This document shows, in pieces, positions 1,584 to 20,794 of a DNA stretch of 20,794 nucleotides (position 1 is its first letter; each line of letters opens with the position of its first letter). The DNA comes from a virus, in IMG/VR virus record IMGVR_UViG_3300025282_000321, positions 1 to 20,794 of that record; one strand, given 5' to 3'. Below the pieces are notes generated by a model. That model ran no database searches and was not told the origin of the DNA. It saw only the letters and a list, made by a program, of their open reading frames with translations. Both the position numbers and the translations under genes were made by a program.

Positions 1584-3239
1584 ATGAGCAAGCTATATGT
1601 AGATACAATTTACCCAAACTCCGGAGAACTTGTCGAACTTTCTGGAAATTTACACGTTTCTGGAACGTTGAACGCTTATGAGTTTAAAACAATTGTACAT
1701 GACTCAACTACATATCGAGGGGATACGTCTTTTGGCAACAGTGTTGACGATGTTAGTACTTTTTCAAGTCAGGTAACTGCTTCATATGGCGCCACAATTG
1801 CTTCCGGCAAAAAACTTAAAATTGGTGCCGACCAAGAATATTTGAAGGGAGACGGCACAGACATTCATTTTGGCCTTGGATCCGGCGGCGACATTAATAT
1901 TCCTGCAAGCATTGGTCTTACATTTGGCGATGATGGTGAAAAGATTGAAGGTGACGGCACAAACTTAGCAATTGCATCTTCTGCAGAACTTGATCTTACA
2001 GCAGGTTCAACTGTTGATATCAATGCCACAACCACTGTAACAGTTGACGGAACTGGAATCTCTATTGATGGCACTGATGATTCAAATTTCACTGTTGCTG
2101 GTTCAAATAAAGATCTTACTATAAGCGTATCTGGAGGTTCTACACAAACGCTCACTGTTAGCTCCGCAGGTACAGGCACGAATGCTATTGATATTAATGC
2201 CACTGCAGGTGGTGTTGATGTTGATGCGAATGGAGCAATTAGTCTTGATTCCGCAGCCGGTTCTATTGATATTAATGTTGTTGATGGACAGACGGTCAAT
2301 GTAGGTTTAAATGGCGCTGTAGAAACAATATGGTCGCCACATGGAACTGCTGGAAGTGAACTATGGTCGACGATTAACACTGCAGGCACCACAGATGGCA
2401 CAGATGCTGCTGGTGCAATTTTATTGAGTACTGTTGCTGGCGGCATTGGTCTTGCCTGGGCAGATACTAAAGATTTATGGGCAGAGGGCGGCCAATTTGT
2501 CGTAACTGCCAATCATGACACGGCTGGAGCTATTAAGCTTCATGCTGATGCGGGAACGTCACAAACAATCCTTATACAGAACGATGCAGGTACAGGCGCT
2601 GGTGCTGTAAATATTGCAGCAGACGCTGGTGGCATTGCTTTGGACGCTGGCTTAGACATTGTTCTTGATGCCGATGGTGGCGATATTTTCTTTAAAGCTG
2701 GTGGGGCGACTTCAGGATCTCTCAATTTCAATACTGCCAATAAGTTTACATTATCTTCAAGTTCTCCTAGTAATGATTTTTATTTGATGTCCGGACGAGA
2801 TATGGTTCTTGATGCCGATGGCGGCCAAGTTCATATTAAAGATGCCGATGCTAGCCACTTTTTACTTGATTGCGATAATACAAAATTTGTAATTTATGAC
2901 GATCAAGACACGGGCGATTTATTTTCAATTACAGTTGCCCAACATGGCGCCACGACAATAACCACTGTCGACGATGATGCAACAGCAGCAGATTTAACAT
3001 TTACAATTGATGGAGATATTATCTTCAATCCCGCTGGTGGAGATATATTACCTAACGCCGATGGTACTACAAATCTTGGTTCTTCTTCAAAACGTTGGGC
3101 AAATGTATATACTGGCGACCTTCACCTTAAAAACAATAAAGGTGATTGGACGATTCTTGAGGAAGAAAACTATTTATGTGTAGTAAATAATAAGACACAG
3201 AAGAGATATAAAATGATGTTAGAAGAGATAGGAGAATAA
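1584..3239 (+). CDS. Large repetitive tail fibre-like protein
   Basis: 551 aa starting at ATG 1584 behind AAGAGGA. The N-terminus ('MSKLYVDTIYPNSGELVELS') leads into a long low-complexity beta region rich in D, G, A, T and I. Loosely repeated phrases include 'IDINATAGGVDVDANG', 'AGSIDINVVDG', and 'VLDADGG' twice ('IVLDADGGD' and 'MVLDADGGQ'). This looks like a repetitive fibre shaft, probably trimeric (inference). The last ~60 residues are the 'NLGSSSKRWANVYTGDL'...'RYKMMLEE' module also found in the gene ending at 1307. No catalytic motif is seen. It ends 3 bases before the next start, with GGAG of the next gene's ribosome binding site inside its last codons. A large minus-strand open frame over 1865-2512 is an artefact of its biased codons. 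Confidence 0.75.
   Translation: MSKLYVDTIYPNSGELVELSGNLHVSGTLNAYEFKTIVHDSTTYRGDTSFGNSVDDVSTFSSQVTASYGATIASGKKLKIGADQEYLKGDGTDIHFGLGSGGDINIPASIGLTFGDDGEKIEGDGTNLAIASSAELDLTAGSTVDINATTTVTVDGTGISIDGTDDSNFTVAGSNKDLTISVSGGSTQTLTVSSAGTGTNAIDINATAGGVDVDANGAISLDSAAGSIDINVVDGQTVNVGLNGAVETIWSPHGTAGSELWSTINTAGTTDGTDAAGAILLSTVAGGIGLAWADTKDLWAEGGQFVVTANHDTAGAIKLHADAGTSQTILIQNDAGTGAGAVNIAADAGGIALDAGLDIVLDADGGDIFFKAGGATSGSLNFNTANKFTLSSSSPSNDFYLMSGRDMVLDADGGQVHIKDADASHFLLDCDNTKFVIYDDQDTGDLFSITVAQHGATTITTVDDDATAADLTFTIDGDIIFNPAGGDILPNADGTTNLGSSSKRWANVYTGDLHLKNNKGDWTILEEENYLCVVNNKTQKRYKMMLEEIGE
3074..3232 (+). repeat. Shared fibre C-terminal module, copy 2
   Basis: Partner of 1139-1300. Both copies end genes, and neither is followed by a peptidase S74-type domain. 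Coding identity is strongest from 'EEENYLCVVNNKTQKRYKMM' onward. Confidence 0.85.
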
Positions 3240-3242
3240 AAG

Positions 3243-4826
3243 ATGCCGCAATATACAGATAGGATTTTTGTTACTGGTTCGGGAACCACTTTTAATGTTT
3301 CTGGATCTTCAGCGTTGGGCGATGCAGCCGCCGACGTGGTAACCGTAACTGGCCAATTAACAGCTTCACAAGGTGGTGTTTTTACTCTTCATGTAGAATG
3401 CGATGATACTCTTAACGTTGATGGAGCAGCTACTTTTGGTGGCAACGTAACTCTTGGTAATGCCGCTGCTGATGCTGTAACTGTAACTGGCCAATTAACA
3501 GCGTCTCAGGGCGCCCTCTTTAGTGTCGCGCCGCGAGTTGCCGATGACATAAAACTTTACTTTGGCACCGGTCAGGATGCTTCAATCTCATATGATGAGA
3601 CCGCATCGGATAAGTTGATTATTTCAGGCGCCGCAGGCGGCACAATGTTTCAAATTCCTGACAATTCCGGTGAAGCATTTGAGTTCAGAGAAACTGACAC
3701 CATTTATATGACAGTTTCCTCTGTCGATGGTCAGGAAGCTGTAAGTTTTAGCAAACGACTAGTAATGCTGGATGACACAGCAATAGCTCTTGGTACCGGG
3801 CAAGACGCCACTATCGAATATGATGAAAATGGAACCGATGAACTTCGTTTTGCAGGTGCGGCAGCGACCTTTGAACAGGCTGTTACTTTTGATGCCAATG
3901 TAACTCTTGGTGATGCAGCTGCCGATGTCATAACTTCAACTGGTCAATTCACCGCCTCACAGGGTGCCAAATTTAGTAATGATGTCTTTCTCGCAGCTGA
4001 TGATGTAAAACTGTACTTTGGAACTGGTAACGACAGCAATATTATGTATGGCAATTCAGGTGGCGGAAATGAATTTACTCTTACCGTCGGCGCCGATGGT
4101 GGCGGAATTCAAATGCCAGACAACGATGGTGCCGCATTTGAAATTAGAGAAGCTGGTAATACGTATATGAGATTTAATACTGGTGATAGTTATGCGGATG
4201 TAAGATGTCCCAAGCCGTTTGGAGTAATGGACAATATAACGTTAAATATAGGCACACCAGCCGCGAGTGGCGTCCCAGGCACATTGGAATACGATGCAGA
4301 TGGGACACAAGAGCTTGTTATTTCTCCACCCCCAAATGGAATGTCTGTCGGCTCAGGCTTTCATAGAATTGCGGTAGATTTATCTATTACTAAAGCAGAC
4401 AGTGGCGATAATGATGTTGCCAATCAATTATTTATGATTGATGGATCGACTCCTGTTAAAATTCCTAATGATGCAATTATTACAAGGGTTGTTGCCATCC
4501 CAAAAGCTCTTTCTAATTTAGGTACCGCACTATATAATGTTCAAATATCTGCTACAAGTGCAACGGCCGCTGACAGCGCGATATCATCAGGAACAGAACT
4601 TCTTGGTGCAGGCGGATCAGGAACGGCCGATTCAAATGGCGGTTCTGCATCGGATATCACAATGTCTAGTGGCGGGGTTTTGAAAAAAGTTTGGTATAAT
4701 ACCACTGTTGTTAAAACGACATATGATGCATATGTTTATGTTTGTAATGCGGGTACTGGTAATGGCACAACTGATCCGGCAACGGGAACCCTGACAATTA
4801 TTATTGAATATTATGGAATAGATTGA
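3243..4826 (+). CDS. Tail fibre-like protein with internal repeats and duplicated C-terminus
   Basis: 527 aa starting at ATG 3243; AGGAG lies 8 bases upstream, in the end of the previous gene. Two repeat families are visible. One is 'LGDAAADVVTVTGQLTASQG' at residues ~25-44, with close copies at ~71-90 and ~222-241. The other is 'DIKLYFGTGQDASISYD' at ~102, with relatives at ~180 ('ALGTGQDATIEYDE') and ~254 ('DVKLYFGTGNDSNIMY'). Each long copy is followed by a segment containing 'QIPDNSGEAFEFRE' or 'QMPDNDGAAFEIRE'. This modular build fits a beta-structured fibre shaft. From residue ~404 the protein is nearly identical to the fragment at 1-384, so two fibre genes share this end. No enzyme signature. 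Probably a distal fibre or adhesin subunit. Confidence 0.77.
   Translation: MPQYTDRIFVTGSGTTFNVSGSSALGDAAADVVTVTGQLTASQGGVFTLHVECDDTLNVDGAATFGGNVTLGNAAADAVTVTGQLTASQGALFSVAPRVADDIKLYFGTGQDASISYDETASDKLIISGAAGGTMFQIPDNSGEAFEFRETDTIYMTVSSVDGQEAVSFSKRLVMLDDTAIALGTGQDATIEYDENGTDELRFAGAAATFEQAVTFDANVTLGDAAADVITSTGQFTASQGAKFSNDVFLAADDVKLYFGTGNDSNIMYGNSGGGNEFTLTVGADGGGIQMPDNDGAAFEIREAGNTYMRFNTGDSYADVRCPKPFGVMDNITLNIGTPAASGVPGTLEYDADGTQELVISPPPNGMSVGSGFHRIAVDLSITKADSGDNDVANQLFMIDGSTPVKIPNDAIITRVVAIPKALSNLGTALYNVQISATSATAADSAISSGTELLGAGGSGTADSNGGSASDITMSSGGVLKKVWYNTTVVKTTYDAYVYVCNAGTGNGTTDPATGTLTIIIEYYGID
3315..3965 (+). repeat. Three-copy 20-residue coding repeat in fibre gene
   Basis: Units at 3315-3374, 3453-3512 and 3906-3965 encode 'LGDAAADVVTVTGQLTASQG', 'LGNAAADAVTVTGQLTASQG' and 'LGDAAADVITSTGQFTASQG'. 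The spacing is uneven, and the first two units are much closer together than the third. Confidence 0.85.
4452..4826 (+). repeat. Fibre C-terminal duplication, copy 2
   Basis: Partner of 1-384. It contains exact matches of 44 and 50 bases and many shared codons between them. Differences cluster around 4496-4520 and 4647-4690. Confidence 0.9.
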
Positions 4827-14421: not shown

Positions 14422-17400
14422 ATGTCAGTTAAAAAGTTTAGATTCGTTTCACCTGGAATTTTCATCAACGAAATTGATCGTTCACAATTGGAAAGACTAC
14501 CAGCAAGAATGGGCCCAGTCATTATGGGACGCTCGGAAAGAGGCCCGGGCTTCCGGCCCACAACCGTTCATTCATATTCAGAATTTGTAGAAATATTTGG
14601 CAATCCCATTCCTGGCGGAGCAACTGATGACGTTTGGAGAAACGGCAATTATAATGGACCTACATATGCGGCATATGCTGCGCAAGCTTATTTAAGAAAT
14701 AATAATCCTGTAACATTTGTTCGTATTCTTGGGGCAAACCATGCGTCAAATGATGGCGCCAATTCCGGAGTTATTGGTGATCATGGTGTTGCTGGCTGGA
14801 GAACCACAAATCTAGCAGCCAGCCTTGGCGGAGCTTATGGTTTGTTTGTTATGCCTTCTGCTTCAATTGGCACGCCTGCAACGGCAACAGTAACTTTTGC
14901 CGGGGCAGTTACAACTGGTAAAACTCTTACAATAACCGATACCACCGGTAAAAGCGTGGCATATACTGCCGCCGATGGTACTGACACCTCTGCAAGCCCA
15001 CCTGAGTTCGAGGATTCGGCCGGTGGCGTCACTGCTATAGCTGCGGGACTTGGGACTTGTATTGAGAGTGCAAATGGTCACAATGGAACAATTCTTGTTA
15101 CTAATAATGGTGATGGTTCGTTGACCTTAAAACAAAACATAAGAGGCACTGGAGGGAATACTACAATGACCGATAGTGGCTTAGGCAACACGACACTTGT
15201 GCAATTTGCCGCCAGCGCCGCGACGACAGGGCAAACTGACGAACAAGCCCGAGTAACAGGCTCTCTTGCTGCTGTTTGGTATCTGGACAGTGGATATATG
15301 CAGCTTTCTGGTGCTATTAGAGGCACTGAAACTGGTAGTGTACCTATAAGTGTTTCCGGAAGTTCAGTATTAATAGGAAATTCTGATAAACTCACATGGA
15401 AAGCAGTCATTAAGGATTCTTCGGATGCCACTGTTGTGGAAACTGCTTTTAGCTTTGATCCTGATTCTGATAATTATATTCGAAAAGCTTTTAACACAAA
15501 TCCACAATTAGTTAATACTGATGTTTATGCCACCACTTCCGGTACAACAAATTATTGGCTAGGCGAAACATTTGAAAGATCGGTTCAAGACGCCCTAGTA
15601 GCCAGTTCTAGCGCTAATACATGCTGGGGTCTTTTAGTGCAGTTAGGCAATGGTACTAATGGATATTCCGACCAGACAAAAGAACACATTCCTTCTGAAA
15701 CCGGCTGGATTGTTTCTCAAGATACTTCTGCAACTTCTCCAGGTTTTGATGTACTCAACCAACAAAGGGCAAAAAGATTATTTAAGTTTGTTTCTTTGGA
15801 TGAAGGATCAGAATGGAATCAAAATAATATTAAAATATCAATTGAAGATATTCGACCAGCTAAAAGTGATAAAACCTGGGCGACATTTTCAGTTGCAGTT
15901 CGCTCAATAAGCGATACAGACAAAAACATAAGCGTTCTTGAAAAATTTACAGGTTGCAACTTGAACGTTTCTTCTCCAAACTATATCGCACGTAGAATAG
16001 GAGACAAACAAGTTACTTATGATAAAGTTAATAAACAATTAAAAGTTGGTGGCAATTATGATAATCAATCACGATATGTCCGTGTAAAAACAAACGAAGC
16101 AGCTTATTCAAAAGATCTTGTTCCTTTTGGTTGTTATGGACCTCCAAGGTATAAAGGATTTACTTTTTTTAGCGGCGCCGCAGGCAGTATCGGTGGTAGT
16201 GATGGCACGGCCACAGCTAATACTTTTGTTCTTGCTGGGTCAAGCATGGATTTTGAAGCTACAGGAAGCCGAAACCAACCCGCAGGCGACCCCCATTGGC
16301 TCCAAGGCGACCTAACAGCAGGAGAAATTTGGTGCGGTTATGAAAGCTCACAAAATAACTCGGGAAGATTAACTGCCTCACTGGCATTTGCCTCACTTGC
16401 ATTAAGAGGCGCAGCAACAGACGGCGGAATAGTTGATCAAAGTAAAGCTTATTGGGGAGTCGATGTTACGAAAACTGGCTCTAGCGAAACTAGATTTGAT
16501 CCTTGCGTTACTGATTATCTTAAAACGCTTGCCGATCAAACCACTGCAGATACTGTTGATTTTCATTTAACGGCCACGAATGCTGAAGTTCAATTTGCTT
16601 TCTCTTTAGATGATCTTGTAGAAGCAGGAAACGGAAACGTTTTTTATACTAGCGGTAGTCGACAAAACTCTGGAAGCAACGGCCAGACGACCAACTCAAT
16701 CACCACGAAAAGTGGTAGTAGTTTCTTGTTGACTGCTTCTACAATGGGGCATGATAAATTTACTACAGTTCTTTATGGCGGTTTTGACGGCTTTGATATT
16801 AGAGAGAAAGAACCGCTTAATACAACGCGCGGTTTGAAAGCAGCCGCAACCGAAAAAAATAGTTACGCTTATTTCTCGGCTACCAAAGCTATTGAAATCA
16901 TTAAAGACCCAGAGCGCGTAGAATGTAATTTGCTGGCCATGCCAGGGGTTACTAATGCAAACTTGACCACTAGATTGGTTAGAGTTGCTGAAGAGCGCGC
17001 GGATACTTTGGCAATTATTGATATTCAAAAAGACTTTACGCCTACTGGTGAAAATAATAACACCGATATGGCAAACCAAGGCAATGTAGATGAAGCAGTG
17101 CGATCGATGAAAGATCGTAAAATTGATTCAAGTTACGGCGCCGCCTATTATCCATGGGTACAAATTAAAGATACACAAACCAATCAAATTTTGTGGGCTC
17201 CACCTTCGGTAGTTGCTTTGGGTGCTTTAGCGTACAGCGATTCTGTTAAAGATGTTTGGTTCGCTCCAGCTGGATTTAGCCGCGGCGGATTAACAGCCAC
17301 AGGCGCAGGCGGAGTACCCGTTGTTGGAATTAATCAACAGCTAACTTCAAAACAAAGAGATAAACTTTATGAAGTTAACGTTAATCCAATTGCATCATTC

Positions 17401-17778
17401 CCTGCTGAAGGAATTGTAATCTTTGGCCAAAAGACCCTGCAGTTAACTCCTTCGGCATTGGATAGAATCAATGTAAGGAGACTCTTAATCTTCTTGAAAA
17501 AAGAGATTTCTAGAATTGCGTCAACAACATTATTTGAGCCAAACCTTGATGTAACTTGGGCGTCATTTAGAGCAAGAGCAGACACTTTGCTGAGCAGCGT
17601 TAAGTCTAGATTAGGCCTCGCAGACTATAAGCTGGTGTTAGATGAATCAACCACAACTCCGGAGTTGATTGATAGAAACATCATGTATGCAAAAGTTTTC
17701 TTAAAGCCTGCTAGAGCTATTGAATTTATTGCTCTAGACTTTATTATTACGAGTTCCGGAGCATCATTTGAAGATTAA
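14422..17778 (+). CDS. gp18: Contractile tail sheath protein, gp18 family, unusually long
   Basis: 1118 aa; ATG 14422 behind AAAAGGAG (14404-14411). The N-terminus is classical: 'RFVSPGIFINEIDRSQ', 'MGPVIMGRSERGPGFRPTTV' and 'EFVEIFGNP', then 'YAAYAAQAYLRNNNPVTFVR'. Residues ~149-275 look like an inserted beta module ('GKTLTITDTTGKSVAYTAAD', 'GSLTLKQNIRGTGGNTTMTD'). The C-terminal ~300 residues form the sheath core: 'YAYFSATKAIEII', 'WAPPSVVALGALAYSDS', 'WFAPAGFSRGGL', 'INVRRLLIFLKKEISRIAST', 'FEPNLDVTWASFRARADTLL', and the end 'AIEFIALDFIITSSG'. It surrounds the tube and contracts on infection. T4 gp18 is 659 aa; the extra ~450 residues are probably surface domains. A tube gene follows. Confidence 0.95.
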   Translation: MSVKKFRFVSPGIFINEIDRSQLERLPARMGPVIMGRSERGPGFRPTTVHSYSEFVEIFGNPIPGGATDDVWRNGNYNGPTYAAYAAQAYLRNNNPVTFVRILGANHASNDGANSGVIGDHGVAGWRTTNLAASLGGAYGLFVMPSASIGTPATATVTFAGAVTTGKTLTITDTTGKSVAYTAADGTDTSASPPEFEDSAGGVTAIAAGLGTCIESANGHNGTILVTNNGDGSLTLKQNIRGTGGNTTMTDSGLGNTTLVQFAASAATTGQTDEQARVTGSLAAVWYLDSGYMQLSGAIRGTETGSVPISVSGSSVLIGNSDKLTWKAVIKDSSDATVVETAFSFDPDSDNYIRKAFNTNPQLVNTDVYATTSGTTNYWLGETFERSVQDALVASSSANTCWGLLVQLGNGTNGYSDQTKEHIPSETGWIVSQDTSATSPGFDVLNQQRAKRLFKFVSLDEGSEWNQNNIKISIEDIRPAKSDKTWATFSVAVRSISDTDKNISVLEKFTGCNLNVSSPNYIARRIGDKQVTYDKVNKQLKVGGNYDNQSRYVRVKTNEAAYSKDLVPFGCYGPPRYKGFTFFSGAAGSIGGSDGTATANTFVLAGSSMDFEATGSRNQPAGDPHWLQGDLTAGEIWCGYESSQNNSGRLTASLAFASLALRGAATDGGIVDQSKAYWGVDVTKTGSSETRFDPCVTDYLKTLADQTTADTVDFHLTATNAEVQFAFSLDDLVEAGNGNVFYTSGSRQNSGSNGQTTNSITTKSGSSFLLTASTMGHDKFTTVLYGGFDGFDIREKEPLNTTRGLKAAATEKNSYAYFSATKAIEIIKDPERVECNLLAMPGVTNANLTTRLVRVAEERADTLAIIDIQKDFTPTGENNNTDMANQGNVDEAVRSMKDRKIDSSYGAAYYPWVQIKDTQTNQILWAPPSVVALGALAYSDSVKDVWFAPAGFSRGGLTATGAGGVPVVGINQQLTSKQRDKLYEVNVNPIASFPAEGIVIFGQKTLQLTPSALDRINVRRLLIFLKKEISRIASTTLFEPNLDVTWASFRARADTLLSSVKSRLGLADYKLVLDESTTTPELIDRNIMYAKVFLKPARAIEFIALDFIITSSGASFED

Positions 17779-17848: not shown

Positions 17849-18436
17849 ATGGGATTCTGGAATGACCAGCAGACTTTCGAGACCAAGAGAGCTTATAGAT
17901 GGGTAGCTATTTTTAATAGGGTTGCACCTTATGCGATCAAATCTGTTTCAAAGCCAAGTGTAAGTATTTCAGAAACTTCGCACAGATTCCTTAATCATAC
18001 TTATTATTATCCAGGCCGTGTAGAGTGGAGCACGGTAGATCTTAGCTTAGTCGATCCACTTTCACCAGACGCAACAAAAACAGTTTTGCACATGATAGAA
18101 GCTGCAGGATATAATCCAAATATTACAGAAAGTACTCCACTCCTAACTATTTCTAAAACAAAAGCTGTTGCCGCCTTGTCAAGCTTAGAAATTCGGCAAT
18201 TAGATGCGGATGGCAATAAAGTTGAAGTTTGGAAACTAAGGCACCCATGGATAAAAGATGCTAAATTTGGCAACTTGTCATATGATAGCGATGATCTTAT
18301 GGACGTTAGCGTAACTATAAGATTTGATTGGGCTGAAGTATGGACCAAAAATAATTCGTTCGCCTTGGATGGCGTAGGAATTGGGAGAAACAGTAATTTC
18401 CCATCCGATTCAAACATTACTTATTCTGGTGGTTGA
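17849..18436 (+). CDS. gp19: Tail tube protein, gp19 family
   Basis: 195 aa; ATG 17849 behind GAGGGAG. It follows the sheath gene directly, as in most contractile-tailed phages. Features: 'AYRWVAIFNRVAPYAIKSVS', then 'KPSVSISETSHRFLNHTYYY', 'PGRVEWSTVDLSLVDPLSPD', the helix 'ATKTVLHMIEAAGYNP', and near the end 'IKDAKFGNLSYDSDDLMDVS' followed by 'VTIRFDWAEV', which corresponds to the last strands of T4 gp19 ('FEVTLALDYWE', from memory). It should stack as hexameric rings around the tape measure protein to form the inner tube. Slightly longer than T4 gp19 (163 aa). Confidence 0.88.
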   Translation: MGFWNDQQTFETKRAYRWVAIFNRVAPYAIKSVSKPSVSISETSHRFLNHTYYYPGRVEWSTVDLSLVDPLSPDATKTVLHMIEAAGYNPNITESTPLLTISKTKAVAALSSLEIRQLDADGNKVEVWKLRHPWIKDAKFGNLSYDSDDLMDVSVTIRFDWAEVWTKNNSFALDGVGIGRNSNFPSDSNITYSGG

Positions 18437-18461: not shown

Positions 18462-19310
18462 ATGAGAAACAATGAAGAGCGCTTTGGAGCAGCCGCAGGT
18501 GCTGGCTCCGACCCTTCAATTGCTGAATTAACAAACAATTCAAGTACATTAAATTTTGTTGTACCAACAGATTTTGTTGAGCTTCCTTCAAAGGGGCAAT
18601 TTTATCCTGAAGGACATCCCTTACACAAGAAGGACCATATTGAAATAAAACAAATGACTGCGAAGGATGAGGATATATTGACCTCAATGTCCTTGTTAAA
18701 AAAAGGTATTGCAATTGAAAGACTACTTGAAAATCTTATTGTCGATAAAACAATAAAACACAGCGACCTTCTTGTGGGCGATAAAAACGCAATAATGATG
18801 AGAACAAGGATTTCTGCCTATGGAAGCACATATGAAACAAAAATCCAATGTCCTTATTGTCAGGCTAATGCCGATCATTCATTTGATCTAGAAGAGATTA
18901 AACCAAAAGATTCAGAAGTAGATGATTCAATTCAATCTACTAAAAATGGAACTTTTGTTATTGAGTTACCATCATCCAAAGTTAAAACAGAAGTACGATT
19001 TCTAACTGGTAAAGATGAAGCTAATTTATTGACATACACAGAAAAGAAAAGAAAATATAATTTAATTGACAATTCAGTAACTGATCAGATGAAAACTTTT
19101 ATTGTATCTCTCAACGGAATTGAAGATCGTGGTCAAATAGCAGAGTTTGTTGATAATATGCCAGCAAAAGATTCACACTATTTAAGGACGGTTTACACCG
19201 ATTTAGTACCAAACATTGACTTAACACAAACTGTTAGATGTCAAAGTTGTTTCACGGAAGTGGAAATGGAGGTTCCGTTTACAACGGACTTTTTTTGGCC
19301 TAAGCAGTAA
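18462..19310 (+). CDS. gp26: gp26-like zinc-ribbon baseplate hub/tail assembly protein
   Basis: 282 aa; ATG 18462 behind AGAGGTG. 'FVVPTDFVELPSKGQFYPEG', 'EIKQMTAKDEDILTSMSLLK', 'KGIAIERLLENLIVD' and 'LLVGDKNAIMMRTRISAYGS' match the T4 baseplate protein family (gp26, Pfam T4_baseplate, from memory). Two CxxC pairs (C130/C133 in 'CPYC', C260/C263 in 'CQSC') probably bind one zinc. The family acts in baseplate hub or tail assembly. Placed between tube and tape measure, it occupies the position of tail assembly chaperones. Near its end seven T residues (19290-19296) lie where the +1 frame is open into the 55-aa ORF downstream, so a longer frameshift product is possible. T4 gp26 is ~208 aa. Confidence 0.78.
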   Translation: MRNNEERFGAAAGAGSDPSIAELTNNSSTLNFVVPTDFVELPSKGQFYPEGHPLHKKDHIEIKQMTAKDEDILTSMSLLKKGIAIERLLENLIVDKTIKHSDLLVGDKNAIMMRTRISAYGSTYETKIQCPYCQANADHSFDLEEIKPKDSEVDDSIQSTKNGTFVIELPSSKVKTEVRFLTGKDEANLLTYTEKKRKYNLIDNSVTDQMKTFIVSLNGIEDRGQIAEFVDNMPAKDSHYLRTVYTDLVPNIDLTQTVRCQSCFTEVEMEVPFTTDFFWPKQ

Positions 19311-19314
19311 ATAT

Positions 19315-19482
19315 ATGGAATCTGTATATGAACAATTCTTTTTATTGAAATATTATGGTAATTGGAGTTTTATAGAAGTATACAATTTACCAATTGGTTT
19401 GAGAAATTGGTTTACAAAAAGATTGATAAAGCAATTCGAAAAAGAAAAAGAAGATTACGAAAAAGCCCAAAAACAAAAATAG
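19315..19482 (+). CDS. 55-aa ORF, possible frameshift extension of the gp26-like protein (tail chaperone type)
   Basis: ATG 19315 to TAG 19480-19482, 55 aa beginning 'MESVYEQFFLLKYYGNWSFI'. There is no ribosome binding site before the ATG; the upstream sequence is the end of the gp26-like gene plus four bases. The same frame is open backwards to 19225, overlapping the last 86 bases of that gene. The motif W-S-F-I-E-V-Y-N-L-P-I-G-L-R followed by a Lys/Glu helix resembles the C-terminal halves of frameshifted tail assembly chaperones, where a 'LP...R' segment precedes a charged helix (from memory). It may be translated by coupling from ATG 19315, or by +1/-2 slippage at the T7 run giving a ~340-aa fusion. 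Either way it probably assists tape measure folding. Confidence is for its being coding. Confidence 0.6.
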   Translation: MESVYEQFFLLKYYGNWSFIEVYNLPIGLRNWFTKRLIKQFEKEKEDYEKAQKQK

Positions 19483-20005: not shown

Positions 20006-20794
20006 ATGGCTGACAGATTTGACCCTAAAGAAATAGCAGAATACCAAGTAATATTAAAGGGTATTGAAGGTATACTAGGGGAAATTGTAGATAAGGATCG
20101 GTCAATTCTCCTTTCAGCCACAGAAAAAGCCAACCTGGCCAATCAGCACGTAGCTAAACTTGAAGATACCATAAAATTAAAATTTCAAGAGCTTGATGCT
20201 GCTGGTAAACTTGCTGATAATGAAGAAAGAAGAAATGCACTTTTAGAACAGCATAGAGTAAATTTAGAACAAGCCTTAGCTAAGGTTACAACAGAACACT
20301 ATGAAAGTCAACGAGCTTGGCAGCAAGCGACAGAGGCCATAGAAAATCTTGAAAATCAAATAGATTCCTTAGACCGCTCAGCGACTACATACAATGCATC
20401 GCTCACAGCCCTTACCAGAAGATTAATCGATGCGCGAGAAGAAGAAGCACGACTTAGCCGTGAACAGCTTCGAATACTCGATAGCGAAAGAGAAGCAATC
20501 GCACGAAAAATTACTGTGGAAATGCGATACACTGATGCAAAACTAAGGTCATCACAAGCTGCGCAAAGCTCAATGACAATGCTCTTTGGTCTAGACAACA
20601 AGTGGCGTCAAACATTGGGTGCTTCGTTGGTGGAAACTACAGCTGCAGCAATAAAAGCCAGAGGAGTGATTCAAGGTGTAACCGAAAGTATGGCCCACTT
20701 GTCTACTACATTATCTAATGTAGGCTCTCTTAGTAATGTAATGGGCTCAGGTCTAATGAAAATACAAGAAACTACGGTTATGATGGTAGGTTCA
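20006..20794 (+). CDS. Tape measure protein, N-terminal 263 codons (3' end outside window)
   Basis: ATG 20006 follows TGGAGG (19991-19996), 17 bases after the previous stop; the frame stays open to the last base. Residues ~10-190 are almost uninterrupted helix rich in E, A, K, Q, R and L, with coiled-coil character ('EVYRISTVIF' on the opposite strand is only its shadow). Examples are 'NEERRNALLEQHRVNLEQAL' and 'LTRRLIDAREEEARLSREQL'. From ~195 it changes to 'SSMTMLFGLDNKWRQTLGAS' style and then Gly/Ser/Met-rich helical segments ('MGSGLMKIQETTVMMVGS'), as in the pore- or membrane-active parts of tape measure proteins. Its place after tube and chaperone genes fits. It would set tail length and line the tube. 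T4's equivalent is gp29; no direct similarity was confirmed. Confidence 0.75.
   Translation, partial: MADRFDPKEIAEYQVILKGIEGILGEIVDKDRSILLSATEKANLANQHVAKLEDTIKLKFQELDAAGKLADNEERRNALLEQHRVNLEQALAKVTTEHYESQRAWQQATEAIENLENQIDSLDRSATTYNASLTALTRRLIDAREEEARLSREQLRILDSEREAIARKITVEMRYTDAKLRSSQAAQSSMTMLFGLDNKWRQTLGASLVETTAAAIKARGVIQGVTESMAHLSTTLSNVGSLSNVMGSGLMKIQETTVMMVGS

Follow-up and report, generated by a model that had tools for sequence, protein, structure and literature searches.

Gene organization around the gp26-like gene

The window, meaning the whole stretch of 20,794 nucleotides analysed here (IMG/VR virus record IMGVR_UViG_3300025282_000321), contains a gp26-like gene among other tail genes. 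The features considered below are the following.

17849..18436, + strand: tail tube protein gene, 5' of the gp26-like gene (PHROG 4542, E 2e-19)
18462..19310, + strand: gp26-like gene, putative short chaperone form (TAC-N), 282 aa (PF12322, E 7e-14; PHROG 150, E 1e-18)
19268..19272, + strand: Shine-Dalgarno (SD)-like GGAGG, 20 nt (linear) before the P-site codon (GAG in 25/26 against a 23% background, p 3e-15)
19274..19288, + strand: predicted small hairpin UCCGUU-UAC-AACGGA, between GGAGG and the slip site (synonymous-version test)
19290..19298, + strand: putative slip site TTT TTT TGG ([C/T]TT_TGG in 34/34 relatives)
19297..19482, + strand: +1-frame extension, 61-aa gp51-type C-terminal domain plus stop (conserved in 34 relatives; hhalign 95%)
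19301..19303, + strand: -1-frame stop TAA just 3' of the slip site (a stop there in 33/34 relatives)
19315..19482, + strand: nominal 55-aa ORF, without a ribosome binding site (RBS), ATG not conserved
20006..20794, + strand: probable tape measure gene, cut by the window end (coiled-coil; tape-measure matches weak)

The gp26-like ORF ends with TAA at 19308-19310. Its product contains two Cys pairs of the zinc-ribbon type and matches PF12322 above the gathering score, and on sequence it can be placed in the T4-type tail-assembly chaperone family (gp26/gp51, TAC). The flanking genes are a tube match upstream and, downstream, a weak tape-measure match in a gene that is incomplete at the window end; the downstream gene in the relative Flavobacterium phage immuto is annotated as tape measure. 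An AlphaFold model of the 0-frame protein only (pLDDT 85) matches viral gp26 relatives. Its top match among 350,542 PDB chains was the HK97 tail-assembly chaperone 2ob9, a weak one (E 1.6, probability 0.33) that gives only a hint of a similar fold, and a sequence search of solved structures returned no relative.

The initial annotation had proposed that a programmed frameshift joins the gp26-like protein to the 55-aa ORF. The sequence details on which it relied were all confirmed: the gene end at 19310, seven T at 19290-19296, a +1 frame open from 19225 to a stop at 19480-19482 and the -1-frame stop at 19301. The claim that the short ORF has no RBS of its own was also borne out, for no SD-like sequence precedes ATG 19315, while GAGGAGGAG and TTGGAGG stand ahead of the starts of the two genes that follow. 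In the slip site, TTT 19293-19295 would occupy the P site and TGG 19296-19298 the A site; TTTT occurs in frame also at 18600. With stops at their shuffled frequency, a single sequence would have 60 open codons with a chance of about 0.4%; the openness of the +1 frame is modest evidence in the window alone and strong evidence across relatives.

Conservation of the slip site and the +1 frame

A scan of viral contigs yielded 61 relatives, and from these together with Microcystis phage Mel-JY01 and Flavobacterium phage immuto we kept a non-redundant set of 34 homologues with less than 90% identity, whose counts are not independent by descent. [C/T]TT_TGG near the gp26 end, followed by an open +1 frame of 54-89 codons, was found in all 34, with TGG as the A-site codon in every case. 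The T run itself, whose retention had been anticipated, is conserved in part: the full seven T are not invariant, and the conserved core consists of the second Phe codon plus TGG, with two relatives (L037 and L043) reading TTC TTT TGG and immuto reading TTT CTT TGG. Several relatives have their +1 frame closed 5-11 nt upstream of the slip codon and their 0-frame stop 9-18 nt downstream of it, so that little room is left for a shift elsewhere. TTT is the P-site Phe codon in 33/33 (p 0.01), but this bias is weak by itself because TTT already makes up 87% of Phe codons, and we dropped it as the main proof in this group.

The extension starts in the 34 relatives with an invariant Gly-Leu that is encoded ahead of any ATG, and in the nearer relatives it continues with a motif of the type VYEQ..LKY.GG.S..E.YNLP..LR.WF. 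Over the two codons that separate the 0-frame stop from the ATG position, substitutions at codon positions 1/2/3 are 0.28/0.04/0.51, compared with an even 0.51/0.51/0.49 at the ATG codon itself. Judged from these substitutions, coding selection in the +1 frame begins upstream of the ATG and reaches the slip site. Moreover, 8 of the 34 relatives have no ATG, GTG or TTG in the +1 frame through codon 11, many have a Q, I, S, K or R codon in place of the ATG, and neither a conserved ATG nor a conserved RBS for the short ORF was found among them. The 55-aa ORF thus probably does not serve as a gene of its own, or at least not exclusively.

Three further observations concern this region. The -1-frame stop after the slip site may be a by-product of Gly-Leu coding, or it may limit -1 products. 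One relative (L005, LR756508, about 3740-3800) has a conserved +1-frame domain after gp26 at the junction TTT CTA TTC CCT, without a convincing slip codon. PF20546 (DUF6760, unknown function) weakly matches 13/34 of the +1 C-terminal domains (window 19297-19479, for example; best E 5e-4), and control genomes gave nothing for a link of DUF6760 to bacterial contractile injection systems.

A second group with +1 organization

In a sister group, gp26 is joined in the +1 frame to a similar domain, mostly at TTY TTT_CGN. This group includes Bacillus phage SP-15, Listeria phage LIS04, Streptococcus phage GXN1, many IMG/VR contigs and one Erysipelotrichaceae bin. The bin (L167, a MAG contig) was the only bacterial one obtained when genome contigs were scanned with the SP-15 group; its gp26 is close to those of phage contigs, and it is probably a binned phage. 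Re-pairing of the Phe tRNA in the +1 direction (TTT to TTC) is possible in 19/20 members, as against only 13/20 for a -2 shift. TTC precedes the slip codon in 7/20, and 8/20 have no ATG, GTG or TTG. Four members (L186, L189, L191 and L195) have no codons for Phe-Phe (FF) but TTA TTT AAT, TTA TTC AAT or CTA TTC AAT, and keep CCC_AGT, a possible replacement +1 site; where the codons read TTA TTT AAT CCC_AGT, slippage may take place at CCC_A.

A selected element upstream of the putative slip site

Synonymous sites just 5' of the slip site are constrained in the TTT_TGG group (GAG 25/26, p 3e-15; CCG 24/34, p 6e-14; GAC 20/20, p 2e-11), and GGAGG is present at the window's spacing in 22/34 relatives. 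The hairpin predicted in the window is more stable than 300/300 synonymous versions. Among 23 core relatives, the hairpin region reached p<0.05 in 15, compared with 0-4 of 23 at each other gp26 position tested, and its mean energy was -4.2 versus -1.2 or weaker elsewhere in gp26. The hairpin is weak or absent in 8/23 core relatives, and a weak sub-branch comprises L036-L038, L041-L045 and L047. Its support comes mainly from the synonymous test since covariation is slight, with one pair changed on both sides and a score reached by 27/500 shuffles. If it folds, the hairpin would bring GGAGG to a spacing of 5 nt from the P-site codon, and would itself end 4 nt before that codon. On this comparative evidence, GGAGG plus the hairpin just upstream of the +1 site is a selected element, and it would act as a stimulator of the +1 shift. 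We found no downstream stem or pseudoknot (mean z -0.03; no pairs with RNAalifold), and no SD-like sequence matching the TTT_TGG element in the TTT_CGN group.

Proposed mechanism and alternative explanations

The best explanation of these data is, with high confidence, a +1 programmed frameshift giving a 339-aa long chaperone; the comparison of 34 relatives strongly supports the frameshift that had been proposed. One start would give two forms of a T4-type tail-assembly chaperone. Most ribosomes would stop at 19310 and release the 282-aa short form (gp26, TAC-N). A fraction would slip while TTT 19293-19295 occupies the P site, with TGG as the A-site codon: the Phe tRNA would re-pair with the overlapping TTT, one base would be skipped, and translation would run on to 19482. 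P-site re-pairing one base forward is possible in 34/34 of the TTT_TGG group and 19/20 of the TTT_CGN group. The predicted long form (TAC-NC) has 339 aa, 278 gp26 residues plus the 61-aa gp51-type domain (...TTDFF-GLSSKYMESVYEQ...), and this C-terminal domain, with an hhalign probability of 95% to the -1-encoded gp51 domain, would be carried by the long form only. If the two forms work as in lambda G/GT, the tape measure protein would be coated by the short form, and the extra domain of the long form would bring in tube subunits. We infer the slippage itself, its frequency and the chaperone role from these comparisons.

The alternative that survives best, although improbable, is that the 55-aa ORF is a separate gene translated from ATG 19315 by coupling to the gp26 stop 4 nt upstream, without any frameshift. 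In its favour, the window and its near relatives have the ATG, only a short distance separates the stop from the start, and two Vibrio phages, VAP7 and K413, show a TAATG stop-start overlap at the junction with no slip heptamer, so that their gp51 is possibly translated separately. Against it stand the lack of an RBS, the replacement of the ATG position in many relatives, the absence of any ATG, GTG or TTG in 8/34 and 8/20 members of the two groups, and the coding selection that extends from the ATG upstream to the slip site. Additional independent initiation at ATG 19315 may occur in the window and its nearest relatives.

The +1 shift is also to be preferred to changes that depend on the T run. 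The initial annotation had allowed for either a +1 or a -2 shift, and the +1 part works in relatives. A -2 shift, as in phage Mu, would insert one extra Phe; the seven T permit its re-pairing in the window and 32/34 relatives keep this ability, but with TTC before the slip codon (2/34 and 7/20) it fails by mismatch at TTC TTT, where +1 fits 34/34 and 19/20. Since an upstream hairpin or a close SD is moreover tied to +1 (PMC6321510, PMC5009743), we regard -2 as quite unlikely. Slippage of RNA polymerase on the T run, giving an mRNA one T shorter, is more doubtful still: seven T are present in 31/34 of the TTT_TGG group, but 3/34 have a run of 3-4 T, and 7/20 of the TTT_CGN group one of 3 T, with the +1 arrangement unchanged. 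Seven T is, besides, a short run for transcriptional slippage. It is this persistence of the arrangement in relatives with broken T runs that favours +1 over both readings. A -1 shift in the window is excluded by the stop at 19301 and by the lack of a T before the Phe codons. Finally, a chance overlap or a sequencing indel is hardly credible, for although a single open frame this long is not rare (about 0.4%) and homopolymers attract indels, the same arrangement recurs in dozens of independent contigs and in cultured phages.

The -1 group and the direction of the proposed shift

In another group of relatives, the end of gp26 reads T_TTT_TTC or T_TTT_TTT, and gp51 is reached in the -1 frame. 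Its members are cyanophages (B23, P-SSM4, Syn19, S-B64 and contigs), Melnitz-3, pf16, Aeh1 and KVP40, as well as the jumbo phages RaK2, Atu_ph07, RAS14 and PA5oct. We rejected the idea that B23 and the cyanophages simply have separate gp51 genes, as T_TTT_TTC is present in them. The slip codons are biased here (TTT 37/37, p 6e-8; TTC 34/37, p 2e-12), and 31/37 members have an SD-like core 8-9 nt upstream of the heptamer. T directly precedes the FF codons in 37/37 of this group, and another base does so in 54/54 of the +1 groups, which therefore do not have the -1 heptamer; similarly, the Asp before FF is GAC in 20/20 (+1) versus GAT in 9/9 (-1).

The domains encoded in the two frames gave an hhalign probability of 95% (P 3e-8), and by this profile comparison they are the same domain, of gp51 type. 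The -1-encoded domain also matches PHROG 634. On the gp26 tree, the distribution of +1 and -1 needs only two changes; the deep branches are long, and the tree gives the number of changes and not their direction. One megaphage (L161, LR756511, about 2680-2923) carries T_TTT_TTC though it stands among +1 rows on this tree, and its -1 frame has a long low-complexity linker ahead of the gp51 domain (VAP7 and K413, mentioned above, correspond to L074 and L164).

An SD-like sequence is reported to serve +1 when it is 3 nt upstream and -1 when it is 9-14 nt upstream (PMC5009743), and in 70S extracts a hairpin located next to the E site raises +1 and lowers -1 shifting (PMC6321510). In the window no SD-like sequence lies about 3 nt before the slip codon, GGAGG being 20 nt away in linear terms. 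The fit of the published spacing rules to the upstream elements of the two directions is suggestive. There is about an even chance, in our view, that the direction of frameshifting switched within one chaperone family, with at least two changes, and that the switch went with a re-engineered upstream signal, namely, for -1, an SD-like sequence placed 8-9 nt ahead of T_TTT_TTC and, for +1 at TTT_TGG, GGAGG plus a spacer-folding hairpin against the E site, the latter being a natural composite upstream +1 stimulator.

Comparison with known systems

T4 gp26 and gp51 have been identified as the short and long chaperone, with frameshifting in some T4-like groups (Vladimirov, Gautam and Davidson 2022, as cited in PMC10885494 and PMC12846349). 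The earlier suggestion that gp26 belongs to the chaperone class therefore holds as to identity, but not as a new idea, and we dropped it as such in view of this prior work as the citing papers present it. Both T4 proteins match PF12322 (E 9e-64 and 4e-52). T4 gp26 consists of PF12322 alone and T4 gp51 of PF12322 plus a C-terminal gp51 domain (PHROG 634), so that the short and long forms are made from two genes on opposite strands. The family and the short/long logic are the same as in the window, which differs in using one gene and a +1 shift instead of two paralogous genes. The +1-domain profile alone gave no significant match to the T4 gp51 C-terminus; the window's domain is tied to T4 gp51 because both connect through the -1 group. 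We also rejected the idea that a -1 site survives as a relic at the end of T4 gp26, which reads GAG TTC TTT GAG and has no shifted-frame domain. The gp26-gp51 pairs of Kyanoviridae, KVP40 and Aeh1 are homologous to the window's, with the same FF dipeptide and the same C-terminal domain, but shift -1 at T_TTT_TTC instead of +1 at TTT_TGG. In cyanophages, gp51 has been noted to be only roughly one fifth as long as its T4 counterpart (Sullivan et al. 2010, PMC3037559).

Lambda G/GT, P2 E/E' and SPP1 17.5/17.5* resemble the window in its probable order tube, chaperone, tape measure and in a short form plus a putative frameshifted long form, but their shifts are -1 (the SPP1 site is UUUUUUC, PMC6316719), and homology by sequence was not seen. 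T4 has been listed as an exception to the widely conserved G/GT frameshifting, and -1, -2 and +1 shifts occur in different phages (Atkins et al. 2016, PMC5009743). E. coli prfB (RF2) resembles the window, as read here, in its +1 direction, in P-site re-pairing at YTT_T and in an upstream SD-like element. It differs in that its A-site codon is UGA and not the sense codon TGG; in the window, moreover, the SD is 20 nt away in linear terms and about 5 nt only with the hairpin folded, and there is no autoregulatory switch.

In the literature covered, with Vladimirov et al. (2022) represented by the papers citing it, we found no description of the +1 mode at TTT_TGG and TTT_CGN, nor of a selected GGAGG plus hairpin before a +1 site as against SD-like sequences before -1 sites. 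T4 relatives, including the large uncultured group of the window, appear to frameshift in opposite directions in different lineages. The same protein junction would be reached by -1, by +1, by two genes and possibly by separate starts, and this natural series makes the determinants of direction and efficiency testable. Annotation would be corrected as well, with the 55-aa ORF and many 'gp51' genes being the ends of a longer protein.

Other observations in the window

The tail sheath gene (14422-17778) is long, with 1118 aa, and its best PHROG match begins only at residue 545, so about half of it would be an insertion or an extra domain. The ORFs 504-1307, 1584-3239, and 1-384 with 3243-4826 have C-terminal stretches in common (GDWTI.EEENYLCVVNNKTQKRYKMMLEE; SAISSGTELLGAGGSGTADSNGG), suggesting that these neighbours are duplicated tail-fibre-like genes.
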